From IMG/VR virus record IMGVR_UViG_3300008448_000469, positions 1 to 28,183 of that record: DNA of 28,183 bases; one strand, written 5' to 3'. This DNA is from a virus. Position 1 is the first letter of the stretch, and each line of letters opens with the position of its first letter. Under the pieces are notes generated by a model, which was not told where the DNA came from, did not search any database, and saw nothing but the letters and a program-made list of their open reading frames with translations. Shown in pieces: positions 2,933 through 25,117 of the stretch. Position numbers and translations under genes: made by a program.

Positions 2933-3904
2933 TCAAGCGTTAAAGGAGTAAGCGATGGTCGAGAAATCAGCGTTCAGAAGTTCGAAACCTGCGTACAGGC
3001 TCCAAATCATCATGATAAAACGGCTGAAATCATCGTTGTTGTTCAACAGAACCTGAGCGTTATTACCGCCGATACCGACGCCAACGCTCTGGGGACCGAA
3101 GAACATACCAATCGCAGCTTCATAAGAAGCGGAGGTGCCGCCGATGCTCGCAGTCTGAGACTGAGAAGGCATGTTGGTGGATTCGAAGAAGCGGACGCCT
3201 TCGAACACAAAACCGGTCGGCATAATCGGCTCACCCGCCACAAAAGTGGCTTGGCCGAAGCCCTGACCCATGTAGATAGCAGCGTTGGGCTGCATCGAGG
3301 ACATCAGGGGGTTGATCTGACCGTTGCCGGGGTAACGAGCAACTTCACGGAAGTCACTGTTCTGGCGCAGGTGCATCAGGAAAGTAGGATCGCAAACGCA
3401 GCGATAGAAACCATCCTGATATGTAGGAACGTTGCGCTTACGCATGGATTTAACCACGCGGAGCAGATCGTCCTTAACGTCGAACTTAGCTTGTTCGGCG
3501 TTTGCGTAGGTGAGGCTACCGACAGCGAGATCGCCGGGGTAGTAGTAACCACCTTGAGAGTCAGAAGCCTGACCCTTAGAAACTGCTTTAAGGAGTTCGT
3601 TAATGAACACCCGGTCGCGCCAACGACGATAGTCGTCGAGCAGAGTCAGCGAACCGATTGACTGGTGGAACGCAGTCAGGTTGCCGGTGTCCAGCAAAAG
3701 ACGCTGCGCGGTGATCAGAGTCTCGCGAGCAATCTTGAAAGTGCTGGGCTGAGTGGGATCACTCGGATCCGCAGGACCAGTGTACTCGCGAAGGGTCACG
3801 AGCACTTTGTCCTTCACAATGTTCCGGCTGTTGGCAGTACCAATGGTCTGCTCAGCAGTGCGCTCCCGAGACTCTTTAGAGCCAGGATTGCCCCAGAAAC
3901 GATA
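2933..3904 (-). CDS. Major capsid protein, exon 3 (main exon)
   Basis: The reading frame from 3904 to the stop at 2933 encodes 323 residues beginning YRFWGNPGSKESRERTAEQT. An apparent TTG start at 3907 belongs to the intron and is not the true start: exon 2 joins in frame to give VQLDR|YRFWGNP. The protein has a charged N-terminal helix region, a long middle part (YYYPGDLAVGSLTYANAEQA) and a Gly/Ser-rich C-terminal part ending in AYSFNA. Size, position between scaffold-like and decoration-like genes, and general look fit an HK97-fold major capsid protein. Together with exon 2 the mature product would be about 370 residues, usual for the family. Identification as capsid is by recognition and context, without a database search. 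Confidence 0.8.
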   Translation of the reverse strand, partial: YRFWGNPGSKESRERTAEQTIGTANSRNIVKDKVLVTLREYTGPADPSDPTQPSTFKIARETLITAQRLLLDTGNLTAFHQSIGSLTLLDDYRRWRDRVFINELLKAVSKGQASDSQGGYYYPGDLAVGSLTYANAEQAKFDVKDDLLRVVKSMRKRNVPTYQDGFYRCVCDPTFLMHLRQNSDFREVARYPGNGQINPLMSSMQPNAAIYMGQGFGQATFVAGEPIMPTGFVFEGVRFFESTNMPSQSQTASIGGTSASYEAAIGMFFGPQSVGVGIGGNNAQVLLNNNDDFSRFIMMIWSLYAGFELLNADFSTIAYSFNA

Positions 3905-4816
3905 CAATTGTTACCCTAGAGGCTCTTTATCCTCTAGTTCTTGCAATTTACCATCCTGCAAGGTCAGACTATATCATCAAGAACACGTATGTGTGTTCTC
4001 GCTCCGCGCTCGTGCCGCCTTATCGCCTTCATCAACCAGAGGTATGCTAAGGCTCGCTTGGTACTCTCTTTTGCTTCGAGTATTGTAAGAAGAGAATAAC
4101 AAGGTGACTTTATGTCGCATCGAGGAGTGAACGTGAGGCCGGATTTTGGAAAGAAACTTGGGCATTTTCCCTCGTGAAATACGAACACGATAAGAAAATC
4201 CGTCTCTGTAAGGTTTAGCCTCTACTCCGGTCAGAGATTCAATCCATTCGCAAACTAGAAGAGCTTCTTCCAATGGACGGTAAAGATTTAAAATCCCTTT
4301 ATTGACCGCAGAGGTGGTCTTACCCACAGAACCATCATCCATCCAAAATACCGCGAGGGCCTCAAGGTCTAAAAGACTTAAAACGTCTTTAGTAAACGAT
4401 TTTTCCCCGTTTTTATAAAATAGAGCGCGAAGCTCTTTTAAAACCGGGTTAACAACCATAGCTTGACAAGAGAGATGACTGTTTTTAGTCCTCTCGTCAT
4501 AGACAAGCCTAGGCTCGCTTACAGATCCTCGTGTCCCCAGCTCTTCGTTTATTCGATTCATTTTGTAAATCAAATAATCTCGTTGAGCAGCCGAATGAGT
4601 AAAACTCAGATAAACGGAATTAGGACGTTCTTTTGGAATTCCTAAACAGCCGTCTCCGGCGACACAGGCGAGAGTAAAGAGAGGGAGCGAAGTCACAGCG
4701 GTAGTCGTTGAACCTTCCGATCATTTCGGATCGGCTTGGCTGCTGATTGCCCTTAAGCATAAAGCCTGGAGGGTTCCCAGCAATTCACGGAGTTTAAAGA
4801 CCGCTATCGCTAATTA
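3905..4816 (-). ncRNA. Group I intron with embedded LAGLIDADG gene in the capsid gene
   Basis: A 912-nt minus-strand group I intron. P1: the exon end GACCGT pairs with GCGGTC (U.G at the splice site). P10: the next exon TATCG pairs with CGATA directly before GCGGTC, and the intron ends in G. Conserved core: P element at 4771-4788 (GTGAATTGCTGGGAACCC), Q at 4738-4748 (AATCAGCAGCC), R at 4702-4713 (GTTCAACGACTA), S at 3967-3975 (GATATAGTC); R and S pair as P7. Near the 3' end are hairpins CTTGCA/TGCAAG (3940-3945 with 3957-3962) and CTAGAGG/CCTCTAG (3916-3922 with 3931-3937). The endonuclease gene lies between R and S. Confidence 0.93.
3977..4696 (-). CDS. LAGLIDADG homing endonuclease in group I intron
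   Basis: A 239-residue protein with two LAGLIDADG motifs, so probably a single-chain enzyme: LACVAGDGCLG at residues 9-19 and LEALAVFWMDDGS at 111-123, each with the catalytic acidic residue. Enzymes of this family cut a long site in intronless alleles, and repair copies the intron into the break. The start is GTG at 4696, just after the R element. The TGA stop at 3977-3979 almost abuts the S element (GATATAGTC), so the gene fills a peripheral loop without breaking the ribozyme core. The C-terminal tail (about 205-239) is basic and polar. Its likely target is the joined exon sequence around 4817/3904. Confidence 0.92.
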   Translation of the reverse strand: MTSLPLFTLACVAGDGCLGIPKERPNSVYLSFTHSAAQRDYLIYKMNRINEELGTRGSVSEPRLVYDERTKNSHLSCQAMVVNPVLKELRALFYKNGEKSFTKDVLSLLDLEALAVFWMDDGSVGKTTSAVNKGILNLYRPLEEALLVCEWIESLTGVEAKPYRDGFSYRVRISRGKMPKFLSKIRPHVHSSMRHKVTLLFSSYNTRSKREYQASLSIPLVDEGDKAARARSENTHTCS

Positions 4817-4952
4817 ACGGTCAAGCTGCACAGTCTGGCCGGGTTGTTTAGAGAAATCATGCACAACCACGGGCTCTGCTGCCATCTCAACGACGTAAGC
4901 CGGATGAGGACGGTAGAGTTCAGCACCGAGCAGCTTCGGAAAATCATTGTCG
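4817..4952 (-). CDS. Major capsid protein, exon 2 (N-terminal part)
   Basis: This stretch between the two introns encodes 45 codons in frame with exon 3: DNDFPKLLGAELYRPHPAY, then VVEMAAEPVVVHDFSK and QPGQTVQLDR. The first nucleotide completes a codon begun in exon 1. The downstream splice site is supported by P1 and P10 pairings; the upstream edge is placed after the terminal G of the first intron (TAACAAAACTG). It is easily missed because it has no start codon of its own and is too short to stand out. No stop occurs in this frame and the sequence reads like a normal capsid N-terminal arm. Confidence 0.85.
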
Positions 4953-5303
4953 CAGTTTTGTTACCCTAGAGGCTCTTTATCCCCTAGCTCTGCATCTTTA
5001 CCATAGATGCAGCTCGGACTATATCATCATCTGCGTGTTTAACACGAGATGTCGGGCGCTCGTGGGCGGTTCATCCGTTCTGGATTATTAAGCCTAGTCT
5101 CTGAACGTTCCATGTGTTCCCACATGGCTTCGCTGCTGATTCCCTCGATCCAACCGCACTGTTGGATCTAAAATCCTGTCCGGTTCTGTGACCGGGGTTA
5201 AATTTTCAAGGTTCTCAGGACAAGTCCTGATTGTTTGTGCTAAAGGAAGGGTTCCAGCAATTCACCCGATTACTGCATAAGCCTCACGACTTATGAGCGC
5301 CTA
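4953..5303 (-). ncRNA. Group I intron without endonuclease, near the capsid gene start
   Basis: A compact intron of about 340-351 nt with the same core elements as the downstream one: P at 5249-5267 (GGGTGAATTGCTGGAACCC), Q around 5127-5145 (AATCAGCAGCGAAGCC), R at 5095-5106 (GTTCAGAGACTA), S at 5017-5025 (GATATAGTC). The 3' hairpins are CTGCATC/GATGCAG (4990-4996 with 5006-5012) and CTAGGGG/CCTCTAG (4966-4972 with 4981-4987). The last 30 or so bases nearly match the other intron, so the two are close relatives. The 3' end after G4953 is well supported. The 5' end is uncertain, at 5292 or 5303. No endonuclease gene is present. Confidence 0.85.
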
Positions 5304-5314
5304 ACGACGAACAA
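5304..5314 (-). CDS. Candidate exon 1 and start codon of the major capsid protein
   Basis: A TTG codon at 5314-5312 lies 8 nt after a good Shine-Dalgarno GGAGG (5327-5323). Reading TTG TTC GTC GT and joining to exon 2 at 4952 gives MFVVDNDFPKLLG in frame. The alternative 5' splice site after 5293 has a better P1 (CTCAT with GTGAG) but breaks this frame. No ATG in the right frame with a ribosome site exists between the upstream gene (stop at 5410) and the intron. The exon is therefore probable but its exact end is a guess. Confidence 0.45.
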
Positions 5315-5322
5315 AGCGTCAA

Positions 5323-5327
5323 CCTCC
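5323..5327 (-). promoter_or_regulatory. Shine-Dalgarno site of the capsid gene
   Basis: GGAGG on the minus strand, 8 nt before the TTG at 5314. It is the only strong ribosome site between 5400 and 4817 and therefore decides the proposed start of the capsid gene. Confidence 0.55.
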
Positions 5328-13903: not shown

Positions 13904-16621
13904 TCAATACTCAATGGAAAACTCCCCTCGCCGCTGTAAAAACGTAATGAGCCAGGTGTACGCGTCCAGCAGGTCATCATGCGCCGTGGCGCCGACGTTG
14001 ATCAGCTGATCGAACAAAGCGTCGAACTTGCGGTACTTATTGAACGTGATTTTCTTGTTTTCTAGCAAACCTAAAGTTCCACGGAAGCGGGCCACCTTGT
14101 CCCCCCGGAACCCTTTAACTTCGTGAATGTGCAGATTGCCCAATTCCCTCTCATTAATAAGGACACGGCGTAGGTCCGCCGCCAGCGAAGCCTGATACGC
14201 AACAGACTCAACAACCAGAGTCACCGTGGAATATGTCGGCATATACGTTCCGTCATGCTGCGTCAAAATCCCCCACTCCAGCAACATATCGCAAAGCAAA
14301 TCGATCTTCTCCAAGTTGCCGATAGAGCGGCACTGGTGCGCATCGATTATGTAGTACTTATCTTTAAGGCGACCACCTAACACAAACGCCGTGTAGTCAC
14401 TTGTTTCATTTTTACTAGCAGACAAGTCGATACCGATAGCCAAACTATCGAACTCCGTAACAACTTCCCCTTTAACCAGCAAGTCAGGCGACACGACCAG
14501 ATCCGATGTCATGACCGGCTGCTGCTGATACTGGTACGCAAAGGCCACGGGGTCCAGCTCTTTCTGACCGAGCAGATACTCAGCGGACCACTGCTCAGGC
14601 CAATAGCTAACAGGTTGTCCAACGTTGTCGTACGTAATCGCTTCCTGTGTTACCTGTTTCCACCCTTTCGACGGCACGAACATCGTCTTATGGATGTCCA
14701 ACGGGTGGAATCGGGTGCCCAGACAGATTGACCGGCCACCTTCAAAAATAATGGGCGCGATAACCGAGGACCAGTTGTTGTTCATTTCGTCCCGAATAGT
14801 CGGGTTGCGAATGTCCGCACTACTTTTAATAGGGTCATCCACGATCACAAGGTGCGCACGTTTAGACGTAATCGAACCCCGAAGACCAGCGGCCCTCAAC
14901 GTAAATTCTTCGTCACCGACCCTAGGGATACCCGCGTAATCGAAGTCAATCGACCAGCCGATGTCGGATTGCATCCCGGACTTCAGCTGAACCTTCGGAA
15001 AAATCTTGCGATACTCCGGCGAGTCAATCAGTTGTCTAATAATGCGACTCTTGGGAATAGCCGTTGCGATGTTGTACGAAACGTAAATAATTTGCAAAGG
15101 CATTCCTGCTGTTGTGTGGCGCCCAATAATCCACGCTGTAAACATGTTCAGCACCGTGGACTTGGCGCTATTTTTGCTCACAACATAATCTTTAATAAGA
15201 AATCGTTCTTGCTGATTACTGACTGTCAAACAACGCACGTCGCTGACGCCAGCAGGCTCGATATTGGTTATAGATCGTACGCAACCCCTATTCGACCGAC
15301 CGGAAGCTGGTCCCAAGTACTTTTTGCTCTTACGTGCGCAATAAAACGGTTTAATATCTGCCGGAAGGCTGACGCTCACACGATAAGCTAAATTTTTACT
15401 TACAATTTTTACCTCATTCTTGTAGTAGTGAGGGTAATAAGGTTTATTAAAACGTACTATTCCGCCTAAAGAACGTACAAGTTCGCTGAATCCTTGAATA
15501 AGTTTAAAGCTAGAACTACCAAAACCCAGTCCCCCTAATCCTTCTGAATTTTTGCCGTGTCCGTTTCTAGTTCCATCTGAGTCAAGTAAACCTCGCAACA
15601 ACCACTCTCGTTGCTCAATGGAACCTCGAAGATACTGCTCCGGAATACTCTTCTCTAAGGAGCTTTTACCGCGCAGGCCCAACTGCTCCAAAACCAGCGA
15701 TACAGCTTTCTTAAAACCTCCCCGCCGACCATCAATAATCGGTTGAGTCGCTCCTTCCGCAAGTTGAATTTGATAGTTATATTTTCGGCACTCGTAAGAA
15801 CGCTCAACTAAAACATTATCTGCAGGCAAAATAGTATTAATAAAATCAGCTATATCCTTATCCGCAGTAGTGATATTAATACTGGTTAGATCTGTGAGAC
15901 CCCCGTCACCTAATAAAATTCCGATGAGGTACGGATGCAGGGGAAGTTCTAATTCAGGGTACTGAACAGCAGAAGTTACAGGTACTTGATAACGCGAGTA
16001 ACCTTTTTTATCCAGCCACGGTTGCTCATCAGGTAGAGCTTGGCGAACAGTTCGCGTCACTCCCGTGCGCCAGTTACCTCGAATCCCCGTGGTTACTAGG
16101 GTTCGGATTTCCTGGAGAGTGGTGGTGCGGTAGTCGCCCTTTGCATTTGTCCCTAAGCGGCGTACGTCAAATCGATGTGAGTCATCACACAACATCGAGG
16201 TTCCGTCAGAAAAAGTCACCTTAAACACGGGAACTTCCCCGTAAGATGGCGTATCTAAAACGGTTGTTGGCAGTCCATCATCACCGTAAACTGTATCTCC
16301 TGTCTTGATATCTTTAAGTTTCACCCATCCTGTAGGTGTTGCAACTTCGGTATCGGGATGTAAAGGTCCCCTAGGGGCCAGAATATCAAGGTTAGGGCCA
16401 GCAATATCTAATAAGTACCTATTGCTCTCACCTGTAATCAGGTGATGATGCCACTCCAGCATGTGCTTAGCCGGAGGCTTGTCTATTAACGTACAGAACG
16501 TCTGAAAGTCATCAGCAGCTTTAGTGTAAATAGAGTCAATAGAACCAACTCTGTTTTCTTGCGCACGCAGAGCACGCACTTGAGCCCCACGGCGATAAGC
16601 AAAAGTTTCCCGACTGGGCAT
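13904..16621 (-). CDS. terL: Terminase large subunit with intein
   Basis: A 905-residue precursor; removal of the intein (residues 86-484) leaves 506 residues, normal for a large terminase. The N-extein ends LDILAPRG and the C-extein begins SAKSTVLNMF, so splicing restores the Walker A motif APRGSAKST. The ATPase domain continues with Walker B LVIVDDP at 591-597 and a coupling region SICLGTRFH. The nuclease domain has AIGIDLSASKNETSDYTAF (catalytic Asp732) and a C-terminal HDDLLDAYTWL with the last acidic residues. The enzyme cuts concatemeric DNA and pumps it into the prohead through the portal. ATP hydrolysis should be impossible before splicing. Confidence 0.93.
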   Translation of the reverse strand: MPSRETFAYRRGAQVRALRAQENRVGSIDSIYTKAADDFQTFCTLIDKPPAKHMLEWHHHLITGESNRYLLDIAGPNLDILAPRGPLHPDTEVATPTGWVKLKDIKTGDTVYGDDGLPTTVLDTPSYGEVPVFKVTFSDGTSMLCDDSHRFDVRRLGTNAKGDYRTTTLQEIRTLVTTGIRGNWRTGVTRTVRQALPDEQPWLDKKGYSRYQVPVTSAVQYPELELPLHPYLIGILLGDGGLTDLTSINITTADKDIADFINTILPADNVLVERSYECRKYNYQIQLAEGATQPIIDGRRGGFKKAVSLVLEQLGLRGKSSLEKSIPEQYLRGSIEQREWLLRGLLDSDGTRNGHGKNSEGLGGLGFGSSSFKLIQGFSELVRSLGGIVRFNKPYYPHYYKNEVKIVSKNLAYRVSVSLPADIKPFYCARKSKKYLGPASGRSNRGCVRSITNIEPAGVSDVRCLTVSNQQERFLIKDYVVSKNSAKSTVLNMFTAWIIGRHTTAGMPLQIIYVSYNIATAIPKSRIIRQLIDSPEYRKIFPKVQLKSGMQSDIGWSIDFDYAGIPRVGDEEFTLRAAGLRGSITSKRAHLVIVDDPIKSSADIRNPTIRDEMNNNWSSVIAPIIFEGGRSICLGTRFHPLDIHKTMFVPSKGWKQVTQEAITYDNVGQPVSYWPEQWSAEYLLGQKELDPVAFAYQYQQQPVMTSDLVVSPDLLVKGEVVTEFDSLAIGIDLSASKNETSDYTAFVLGGRLKDKYYIIDAHQCRSIGNLEKIDLLCDMLLEWGILTQHDGTYMPTYSTVTLVVESVAYQASLAADLRRVLINERELGNLHIHEVKGFRGDKVARFRGTLGLLENKKITFNKYRKFDALFDQLINVGATAHDDLLDAYTWLITFLQRRGEFSIEY
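15170..16366 (-). other. Intein with LAGLIDADG endonuclease domain inside terL
   Basis: A 399-residue intein in the Walker A loop of the terminase. Splicing block A: PLHPDTEVATPTGWVKLKDI at its start. Block B: TFSDGTSMLCDDSHRFDV with the conserved His (intein residue 64). LAGLIDADG motifs: LIGILLGDGGL (147-157) and LLRGLLDSDGT (256-266). Block F: VSDVRCLTV with Cys379. Block G: DYVVSKN followed by Ser. The first residue is Pro and not the usual Cys or Ser, and the penultimate residue is Lys and not His. The F-block Cys suggests a class 3-like mechanism. Boundaries are set by comparison with the Walker A consensus and have not been tested. Confidence 0.9.
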
Positions 16622-24676: not shown

Positions 24677-25117
24677 CTAGAAATCAACTTCTAGGAGCGT
24701 CAAATCAACCTTAGCTTCCCTAAACATCGACTGGGACATCGTAAAACTGTCAATCCATCGATCCGGAATAGGAAAATCAGGGGCGACCACGCGGGTAATA
24801 CCTGCTTGGATCAGCAGCGTGCAGCAGTTGCTGCAGGGCAGAAAAGGCCAAACGTAGACCGTAGACCCCTCCAAACTGACACCATTACGTGCCGCGTGGG
24901 CAATGATGTTTGCCTCAGCGTGGACGGTGCGCAGTAGCTTCTCGTCGCGATTCGACAAACGACCCGGCAGATCCGCAACGCCTCGAGGGAAACCGTTGTA
25001 ACCGGTTCCCAGGACGCGCCGGTTTTTAACGGCAACCGCGCCCACCTGTGTCGATGGGTCTTTACTCCACGAGGCAATGAGCTTGGCCTGCTCTAGAAAC
25101 CGGCTATCCCAAGACAC
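24677..25117 (-). CDS. dCMP deaminase
   Basis: A 146-residue zinc-dependent deaminase. The catalytic HAE is at residues 66-68 (LLRTVHAEANIIAHAARNG), and the zinc-binding PCSNC at 94-98. The N-terminus MSWDSRFLEQAKLIASWSKD with DPSTQVGAV is typical of deoxycytidylate deaminases, which convert dCMP to dUMP, the precursor of dTMP. Length and motifs are normal. In phages it supplies thymidine nucleotides for replication. The start is GTG at 25117; it follows the previous gene by 3 nt in the accessory minus-strand operon. Confidence 0.93.
   Translation of the reverse strand: MSWDSRFLEQAKLIASWSKDPSTQVGAVAVKNRRVLGTGYNGFPRGVADLPGRLSNRDEKLLRTVHAEANIIAHAARNGVSLEGSTVYVWPFLPCSNCCTLLIQAGITRVVAPDFPIPDRWIDSFTMSQSMFREAKVDLTLLEVDF

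Follow-up and report, generated by a model that had tools for sequence, protein, structure and literature searches.

Group I introns excise by guanosine-initiated transesterification. In the published account of crAss-like phages of the Zeta group, the major capsid gene is described as broken into five fragments and as containing group I introns; multi-intron capsid genes are in this respect already known (PMC7886860). The capsid gene of mycobacteriophage LittleE is described with one intron, the splicing of which was demonstrated by reverse transcription PCR and N-terminal sequencing (PMC3706429), and about 18.5 group I introns per genome are reported for Jug phages (PMC12363816). Here we analyse positions 1 to 28,183 of the IMG/VR virus record IMGVR_UViG_3300008448_000469 (28,183 nucleotides, nt; this whole stretch is referred to as the window), in which two predicted self-removing group I introns very probably split the capsid gene of an S-EIV1-like phage, the one for its major capsid protein, into exons of 8, 136 and 972 nt that together encode 371 amino acids. 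The intron class is based on a model match and on covariation; exact empty sites, pairing between guides and exons, and purifying selection on an endonuclease are further evidence. From these we infer splicing, homing and the route to new sites. Two group I introns in this gene had been proposed in an earlier note made from the letters of the window, and they are borne out by Rfam matches (that of intron 2 below the cut-off), empty sites, covariation and guide pairing. The same note called two introns in a phage capsid gene unusual, which has to be toned down, as the five-fragment gene is published and relatives of the window carry four introns.

Relatives were collected by a capsid query of IMG/VR, from which the best 80 loci were kept out of more than 80. 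Apart from S-EIV1, all relatives are virus-collection contigs (metagenome assemblies), with no reads for checking. The letters of exon 1 in the window are UUGUUCGU (8 nt). In intronless relatives TTGTTCGT is followed directly by CGACAATG, or a synonym, across the intron 1 site, and in those inspected the start region reads TTGTTCGTCGACAATG or a synonym; this region is uninterrupted in 74 of the 80 loci. Exons 2 and 3 are joined in 77 loci, interrupted in two (L009, L053) and without coverage in one. They are also continuous in S-EIV1, where the frame deduced in the earlier note, VQLDR/YRFWG (the slash marks the splice point), is unbroken. The junctions read CGU/CGUUAG...CUG/CGAC for intron 1 and CGU/UAAUUA...UUG/UAUCG for intron 2; in both, U ends the 5' exon and G ends the intron, as the group I rule demands. 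Because uninterrupted relatives are empty at exactly these sites, the junctions CGU/.../CGAC and CGU/.../UAU are fixed, with the cut of intron 1 slidable by at most 2 bases and set at the position that obeys the U/G rule. Joining the three exons of the window gives 1116 nt and 371 residues; no stop falls inside this frame, which is collinear with the unbroken gene of the relative L004.

Two simpler descriptions of the gene were rejected. A capsid protein beginning at YRFWG was discarded, as relatives continue through 48 further residues, 44 of which occupy positions with no or almost no variation across 14 uninterrupted relatives; none of the 80 loci begins at YRFWG in the comparison with intronless homologs suggested earlier. 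The expectation that gene callers truncate the protein held, and the N-terminal loss amounts to 48 residues and not 45. An intein was rejected because in-frame stops come after both 5' splice sites, 5 codons past the one at coding sequence (CDS) position 8 and immediately at position 144. The positions of exon 3, exon 2 and the two intervals stand as they had been given (Table 1).

The product of exon 3 matches the major head protein family phrog_1357 (expectation value, E, 2.3e-18), as does the intact gene of L004 (E 1.6e-21, residues 34-365). Exon 3 is 65.5% identical to Synechococcus phage S-EIV1, the sole match among 50,697 phage records, from which the records nearest the window were possibly excluded. 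The phage would thus infect bacteria and be related to a virus of lake cyanobacteria, a host suggested by S-EIV1 alone. In the S-EIV1 record (L003 7782-9008; KJ410740.1 60784-62010) the intact capsid open reading frame (ORF) is unannotated, and its place is taken by a CDS on the opposite strand plus a short C-terminal one. The record of this cultured relative lacks a single CDS for the gene, and gene callers likewise truncate the capsid protein of the window.

The intron class was assessed with the Rfam group I model RF00028, which has a curated cut-off of 50 bits. This covariance search had been proposed earlier as a check, and both intervals match; intron 1 (5316-4990, minus strand) reaches 66.8 bits (E 4e-15), which is above the cut-off, and the lower score of intron 2 is weighed below. 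For the structure we aligned seven introns at site 8 with two at CDS position 57, giving eight distinct rows. Helices found by RNAalifold were assigned to P1, P2, P3, P4, P5, P6, P8, P9.1 and P9.2 (the last two are our labels), and for 30 of the 84 pairs one or more sequences had both partners altered. Once P7 was included and seven exon-exon pairs were left out, 96.9% of the cells were paired and 30 of 82 pairs were altered on both sides, as against a shuffled mean of 15.1 (reached in none of 500 shuffles) and at most 8 in slid versions. P7 itself is constant within the nine-intron alignment. Over 97 introns it reads GACUA/UAGUC in 92 and appears as three compensatory variants in the remaining five; its partners were sought with patterns close to the motif expected, and the number of 92 standard cases owes something to this selection, and two site 54 introns that did not fit were left out of this count and of the tree described below. 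A P3-P9 core with the conserved P7 is present in the window introns.

In intron 2 a P1 of 6 base pairs is formed between the internal guide sequence (IGS) GCGGTC and GACCGT of exon 2 (4822-4817), with U.G at the splice site, and a P10 of 7 base pairs between AGCGATA and TATCGTT of exon 3 (3904-3898). Both helices named in the earlier note for the downstream intron, GACCGU/GCGGUC and UAUCG/CGAUA, are thus present. Among the 13 introns at site 144, P10 follows synonymous changes in exon 3, TATCG occurring with CGAT[AG] and TACC with GGTA. One P1 pair of intron 1 changes from GC to AU between sites 8 and 57. When the guides of one intron per site were scored against their own 5' exons at 18 sites, with the search limited to 24 nt into the intron, the score was 105.6, compared with 50.4 (standard deviation 8.1) for permuted exons (0 of 10000 permutations reached it). 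Without the two sites of the window the values were 91.2 and 41.7 (0 of 10000).

Additional searches were made with the intron 3' end (giving at least the matches listed), the endonuclease and an inner capsid segment (best 80 kept). The 275 sequences gathered include 191, the window among them, with a capsid match, lying in 136 distinct regions. By spliced alignment and the U/G rule, introns in the capsid CDS were resolved at 18 positions: nt 8, 12, 18, 54, 57, 64, 92, 107, 109, 144, 154, 233, 265, 321, 418, 831, 854 and 1029. Spliced alignment had given 30 candidate positions, and 12 were dropped: 68 (two truncated contigs, inside an endonuclease region, though the U/G rule was passed), 104 and 119 (a chimera in L089), 106 (L098 and L104; Rfam intron match, splice points not placed), 244 (L113, truncated), 320, 336 and 365 (L228, unconvincing), 422, 436 and 500 (L103, contig end) and 1102 (L119, unconvincing). 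Overall 21 rows were dropped, some of them at kept sites; from the 104 intron rows five were then removed (two at site 68, and L110, L113 and L068), which left 99. The first exons of L058, L085 and L092 were set by hand in place of aligner placements 1.8-2.2 kb upstream, one L092 row was moved from 107 to 109 by eye, and the position of site 418 in L275 was likewise set by eye.

At least one intron lies above the Rfam cut-off at 14 of the 18 sites; the best scores at the others were 29.2 (site 54), 41.4 (site 107), 48.2 (site 233) and 25.2 bits (site 321). The introns at 107 and 109 are close relatives offset by two bases. Site 8 is occupied in six other whole loci and in L089, which is cut by a contig end, and site 144 holds 12 further introns in other loci. 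Every one of the site 144 introns (13 loci) opens with an in-frame stop, TAA, TGA or TAG. Four introns per gene were found in L092 (12, 109, 144, 321) and in L275, a 59-kb record (57, 321, 418, 831); L098 and L104 apparently have four each, one with splice points not placed, and L089 has five intron stretches, of which one is truncated at the contig end and another is chimeric.

A few places in these contigs deserve separate mention. At about 594-962 of L089/L112 exon residues 37-48 are absent and the 5' half of a site 109 intron joins the 3' half of a site 144 intron out of frame, which may reflect either recombination between introns or an assembly chimera. In L098 (about 4094-4427) and L104 the splice points in CDS nt 92-109 could not be placed; L098 has about 50 extra nt before VVHDFS, which itself seemingly lies inside an intron. 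Exon 2 of L009 (about 2940-2950) is 7 nt shorter than in relatives, by a frameshift or a sequence error.

Intron presence is patchy. Of the best 80 loci in the census with the inner segment, L006 and L163 start too late to be judged; among the other 78, which are informative, 26 carry at least one intron and 52 none; the former value is not a population frequency, because the query misses genes cut inside the segment and ranks loci by likeness to the window. The nearest relatives of the window, L004 and L005, are intronless. Exon 2 and 1.5 kb upstream of it are 84-87% identical between the window and these two, and identity rises to 99.5-100% over the first 200 nt of exon 3, a step that is possibly a recombination boundary at intron 2. 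RF00028 was also run over 30 whole records (1,483,813 bases) and gave 50 matches in 21 records. All 50 overlap the capsid stretch or sit at most 1131 nt from it, in the range taken up by introns of the gene itself, and they were assigned to the gene by hand. No match away from the capsid gene was found in these records, where weak introns may escape the model. Since the records were selected for carrying the capsid gene, and 13 had been found through searches with the intron end or the endonuclease, it is the absence of introns elsewhere in them that is informative.

Intron 2 contains an ORF with matches to PF03161 (E 4.7e-15) and phrog_11023 (E 1.6e-12); intron 1 has no endonuclease ORF. The ratio of nonsynonymous to synonymous divergence (dN/dS) of this endonuclease was 0.105, 0.097 and 0.088 in three of nine pairs, with dS of 1.6-2.0 and so near saturation, dS being saturated in the other six; to judge from these ratios the gene is under purifying selection. 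The endonucleases from one intron at each of nine sites are all of the LAGLIDADG type. They fall into a PF03161 kind on the sense strand (six sites: 54, 64, 107, 233, 265, 321) and a PF14528 kind on the opposite strand (three sites: 92, 418, 854). Homing by such enzymes would be consistent with the patchy presence of introns and the intronless alleles.

Across 74 nt, the 3' domains of the two window introns are 85% identical (E 3e-16). A tree was built on short concatenated core pieces (72 distinct cores, 17 sites) and has low support at several nodes; 20 changes of site were counted in it, compared with a mean of 52.4 and a least value of 45 for shuffled labels; with 107 and 109 merged there were 16 changes for 16 sites, where the minimum possible is 15. 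The site changes are few, and therefore the introns mostly keep to one site and are handed on between phages. The introns of site 144, found in three places of the tree, and those of site 831, found in two, speak against one entry for each site. Both window introns have a 3' domain of one type (P9.1/P9.2) and appear to be members of a single family that settled at many sites of the capsid gene by guide change.

A mechanism can be proposed from these data. Introns 1 and 2 would leave the capsid mRNA by guanosine-initiated transesterification, with the 5' splice sites selected through a P1 helix that has U.G where the RNA is cut, and intron 2 would additionally align exon 3 by P10. Intron 2 may act as a mobile unit, its LAGLIDADG enzyme cutting intronless alleles near QLDR/YRFWG so that repair copies the intron in, and intron 1 could be a deletion derivative or be carried along. 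New sites might be reached by reverse splicing or by off-target cutting. It is conceivable, though we would not expect it, that one intron family multiplied inside the capsid gene, acquiring a new guide with each move, maybe by reverse splicing and copying back, and was then spread between phages by homing. Such reverse splicing would be into the capsid mRNA, if this is the most abundant late transcript. New group I introns would then have their nursery in the capsid gene, similar to the intron bursts of eukaryotes.

Several results weigh against a capsid gene split by two such introns. Intron 2 scored only 38.7 bits with RF00028 (4826-3946 minus, E 1.1e-6), under the cut-off and with a 720-nt ORF inserted; site 144 introns without a full endonuclease ORF scored 64.5 (L104) and 60.1 bits (L119). 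The P1 of intron 1 is short, with three pairs across the splice site, and a simple scan favours a longer decoy further in; a simple scan of the window for P10 of this intron found none. Further pair types in the structure alignment numbered 45 versus 40.5 in the shuffles, a value reached by 30 of 500, and shuffling does not remove the relatedness of the introns. A looser guide test with a deeper intron search gave 113.3 versus 77.1 for permuted exons (0 of 5000), and the own exon was the single best match in only three of 18 introns, so the guide signal is collective; the site 54 guide scored 0 in the 24-nt test. The capsid assignment depends on PHROG profiles: the predicted structure was unusable for judging an HK97-like fold, with a mean predicted local distance difference test score of 28.8, and a sequence search of solved structures gave no match of weight, the best being four chitinase chains (E 0.7-0.86). 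The contigs are, moreover, metagenome assemblies, and one relative (L089) looks chimeric. The under-threshold score of intron 2, together with the weak P1 of intron 1 and the lack of a P10 for it in the simple scan, could indicate degenerate group I introns that no longer splice, in a phage that is defective or makes a truncated capsid protein from the TTG at 3907. We regard this as very unlikely, given that the core helices are intact and covarying, intron 2 has both a P1 and a P10, all three exons are open with the residues of the relatives, the endonuclease is under apparent purifying selection, and the N-terminal segment is so highly conserved in uninterrupted relatives.

That introns of other phages were joined into the capsid gene in silico is hardly credible either, even though the window is itself such a contig, repeats common to introns can mislead assemblers, and L089 has two intron halves fused out of frame with exon residues lost. 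Both insertions of the window lie precisely at U/G splice points, leave the frame intact and carry guides that fit their exons, and other contigs have introns at the same sites, seven more at site 8 (one cut) and 12 more at site 144. A different role for the introns, compatible with two spliced introns in the capsid gene, would be that they are retained not as selfish elements but as a splicing switch that delays or tunes capsid output. A stretch of 21 nt takes in the ribosome site, the start codon and the point where intron 1 begins, its 5' splice site, such that initiation and P1 could compete, and at all 18 sites an in-frame stop occurs at most 25 codons past the 5' splice site (median 5). 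Early stops are, however, expected of any tolerated intron, and with 52 of the 78 census loci intronless, as are L004 and L005, we consider such a switch unlikely. Two spliced group I introns in the capsid gene remain our preferred reading.

Table 1. Elements of the split capsid gene, by position in the window
Feature	Position	Strand	Basis
GGAGG, likely Shine-Dalgarno sequence of the capsid gene	5323..5327	-	sequence; comparable purine-rich run ahead of the start codon in the intronless relatives inspected
Exon 1: TTG start, TTC and GT, 8 nt	5307..5314	-	contiguous in intronless relatives
Intron 1, predicted group I, after CDS nt 8, 354 nt, ends AACTG	4953..5306	-	RF00028 66.8 bits; covariation
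Exon 2: C and 45 codons DNDFPK...QLDR, 136 nt	4817..4952	-	joined to exon 3 in 77/80 relatives
Intron 2, predicted group I, after CDS nt 144, 912 nt	3905..4816	-	RF00028 38.7 bits; P1 6 base pairs, P10 7 base pairs
Intron 2 guide: P10 partner AGCGATA 4811-4805, IGS GCGGTC 4804-4799	4799..4811	-	pairing with exons
LAGLIDADG homing endonuclease ORF, 239 amino acids	3977..4696	-	PF03161, phrog_11023; overlaps P3 3' strand of the Rfam alignment
Exon 3: 323 codons YRFWG...SFNA and stop, 972 nt, major capsid protein	2933..3904	-	phrog_1357; S-EIV1 likeness

Elsewhere in the window, the terminase large subunit gene (13904-16621 minus) has an intein-like insert at about residues 86-485, before SAKST, with LAGLIDADG_3 above its cut-off and Hint_2 and Hom_end below theirs. 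The terminase of S-EIV1 is unbroken at this point and has its own insert further on (about residues 200-531). At 1996-2075 minus an anti-hemB match below threshold (27.9 bits, cut-off 49.5) is probably a terminator hairpin after the gene at 2046-2915, and a dCMP/cytidine deaminase-like gene (PF00383) lies at 24677-25117 minus. An 18-nt motif of the intron 3' end also occurs in other phages (L090 5234-7406, L094 1-1300, L099 86-1943). The L090 copy borders on a split major head gene that belongs to a different family (phrog_11589). Group I matches number three in L094 and four in L099, and the single L094 exon piece tested received no PHROG name. A preference of this intron type for capsid genes may extend beyond a single phage lineage.

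With 18 sites in one 1.1-kb gene beside intronless alleles, the S-EIV1-like capsid gene offers a natural experiment on site gain and guide change, and genes with up to four ribozymes in the mRNA are test pieces for tolerance in a high-output gene. A literature search for introns in the capsid gene of S-EIV1-like phages found none among the top-ranked results, mostly from outside subscription journals. The LittleE intron resembles intron 2 in the endonuclease-like ORF inside it, called LAGLIDADG in the text of that report and HNH in a legend. It differs from the window in being a single intron of about 820 bp with the ORF on the opposite strand, of a type called unclear there and most likely group I (PMC3706429). 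In the crAss-like Zeta phages, as the published account has it, introns and inteins crowd many genes (PMC7886860), whereas in the 30 S-EIV1-like records the Rfam matches are all within the capsid gene or next to it. A comparable pattern is shown by the group I introns of fungal ribosomal DNA, which occupy many sites in one region and for which reverse splicing is proposed as a route to new ones; as that source describes them these are nuclear, at more than 90 sites, and neither of phage origin nor in protein-coding sequence (PMC1299323). Not met with in the literature found is so large a number of sites in a single short gene, occupied by what appears to be largely one retargeted intron family.

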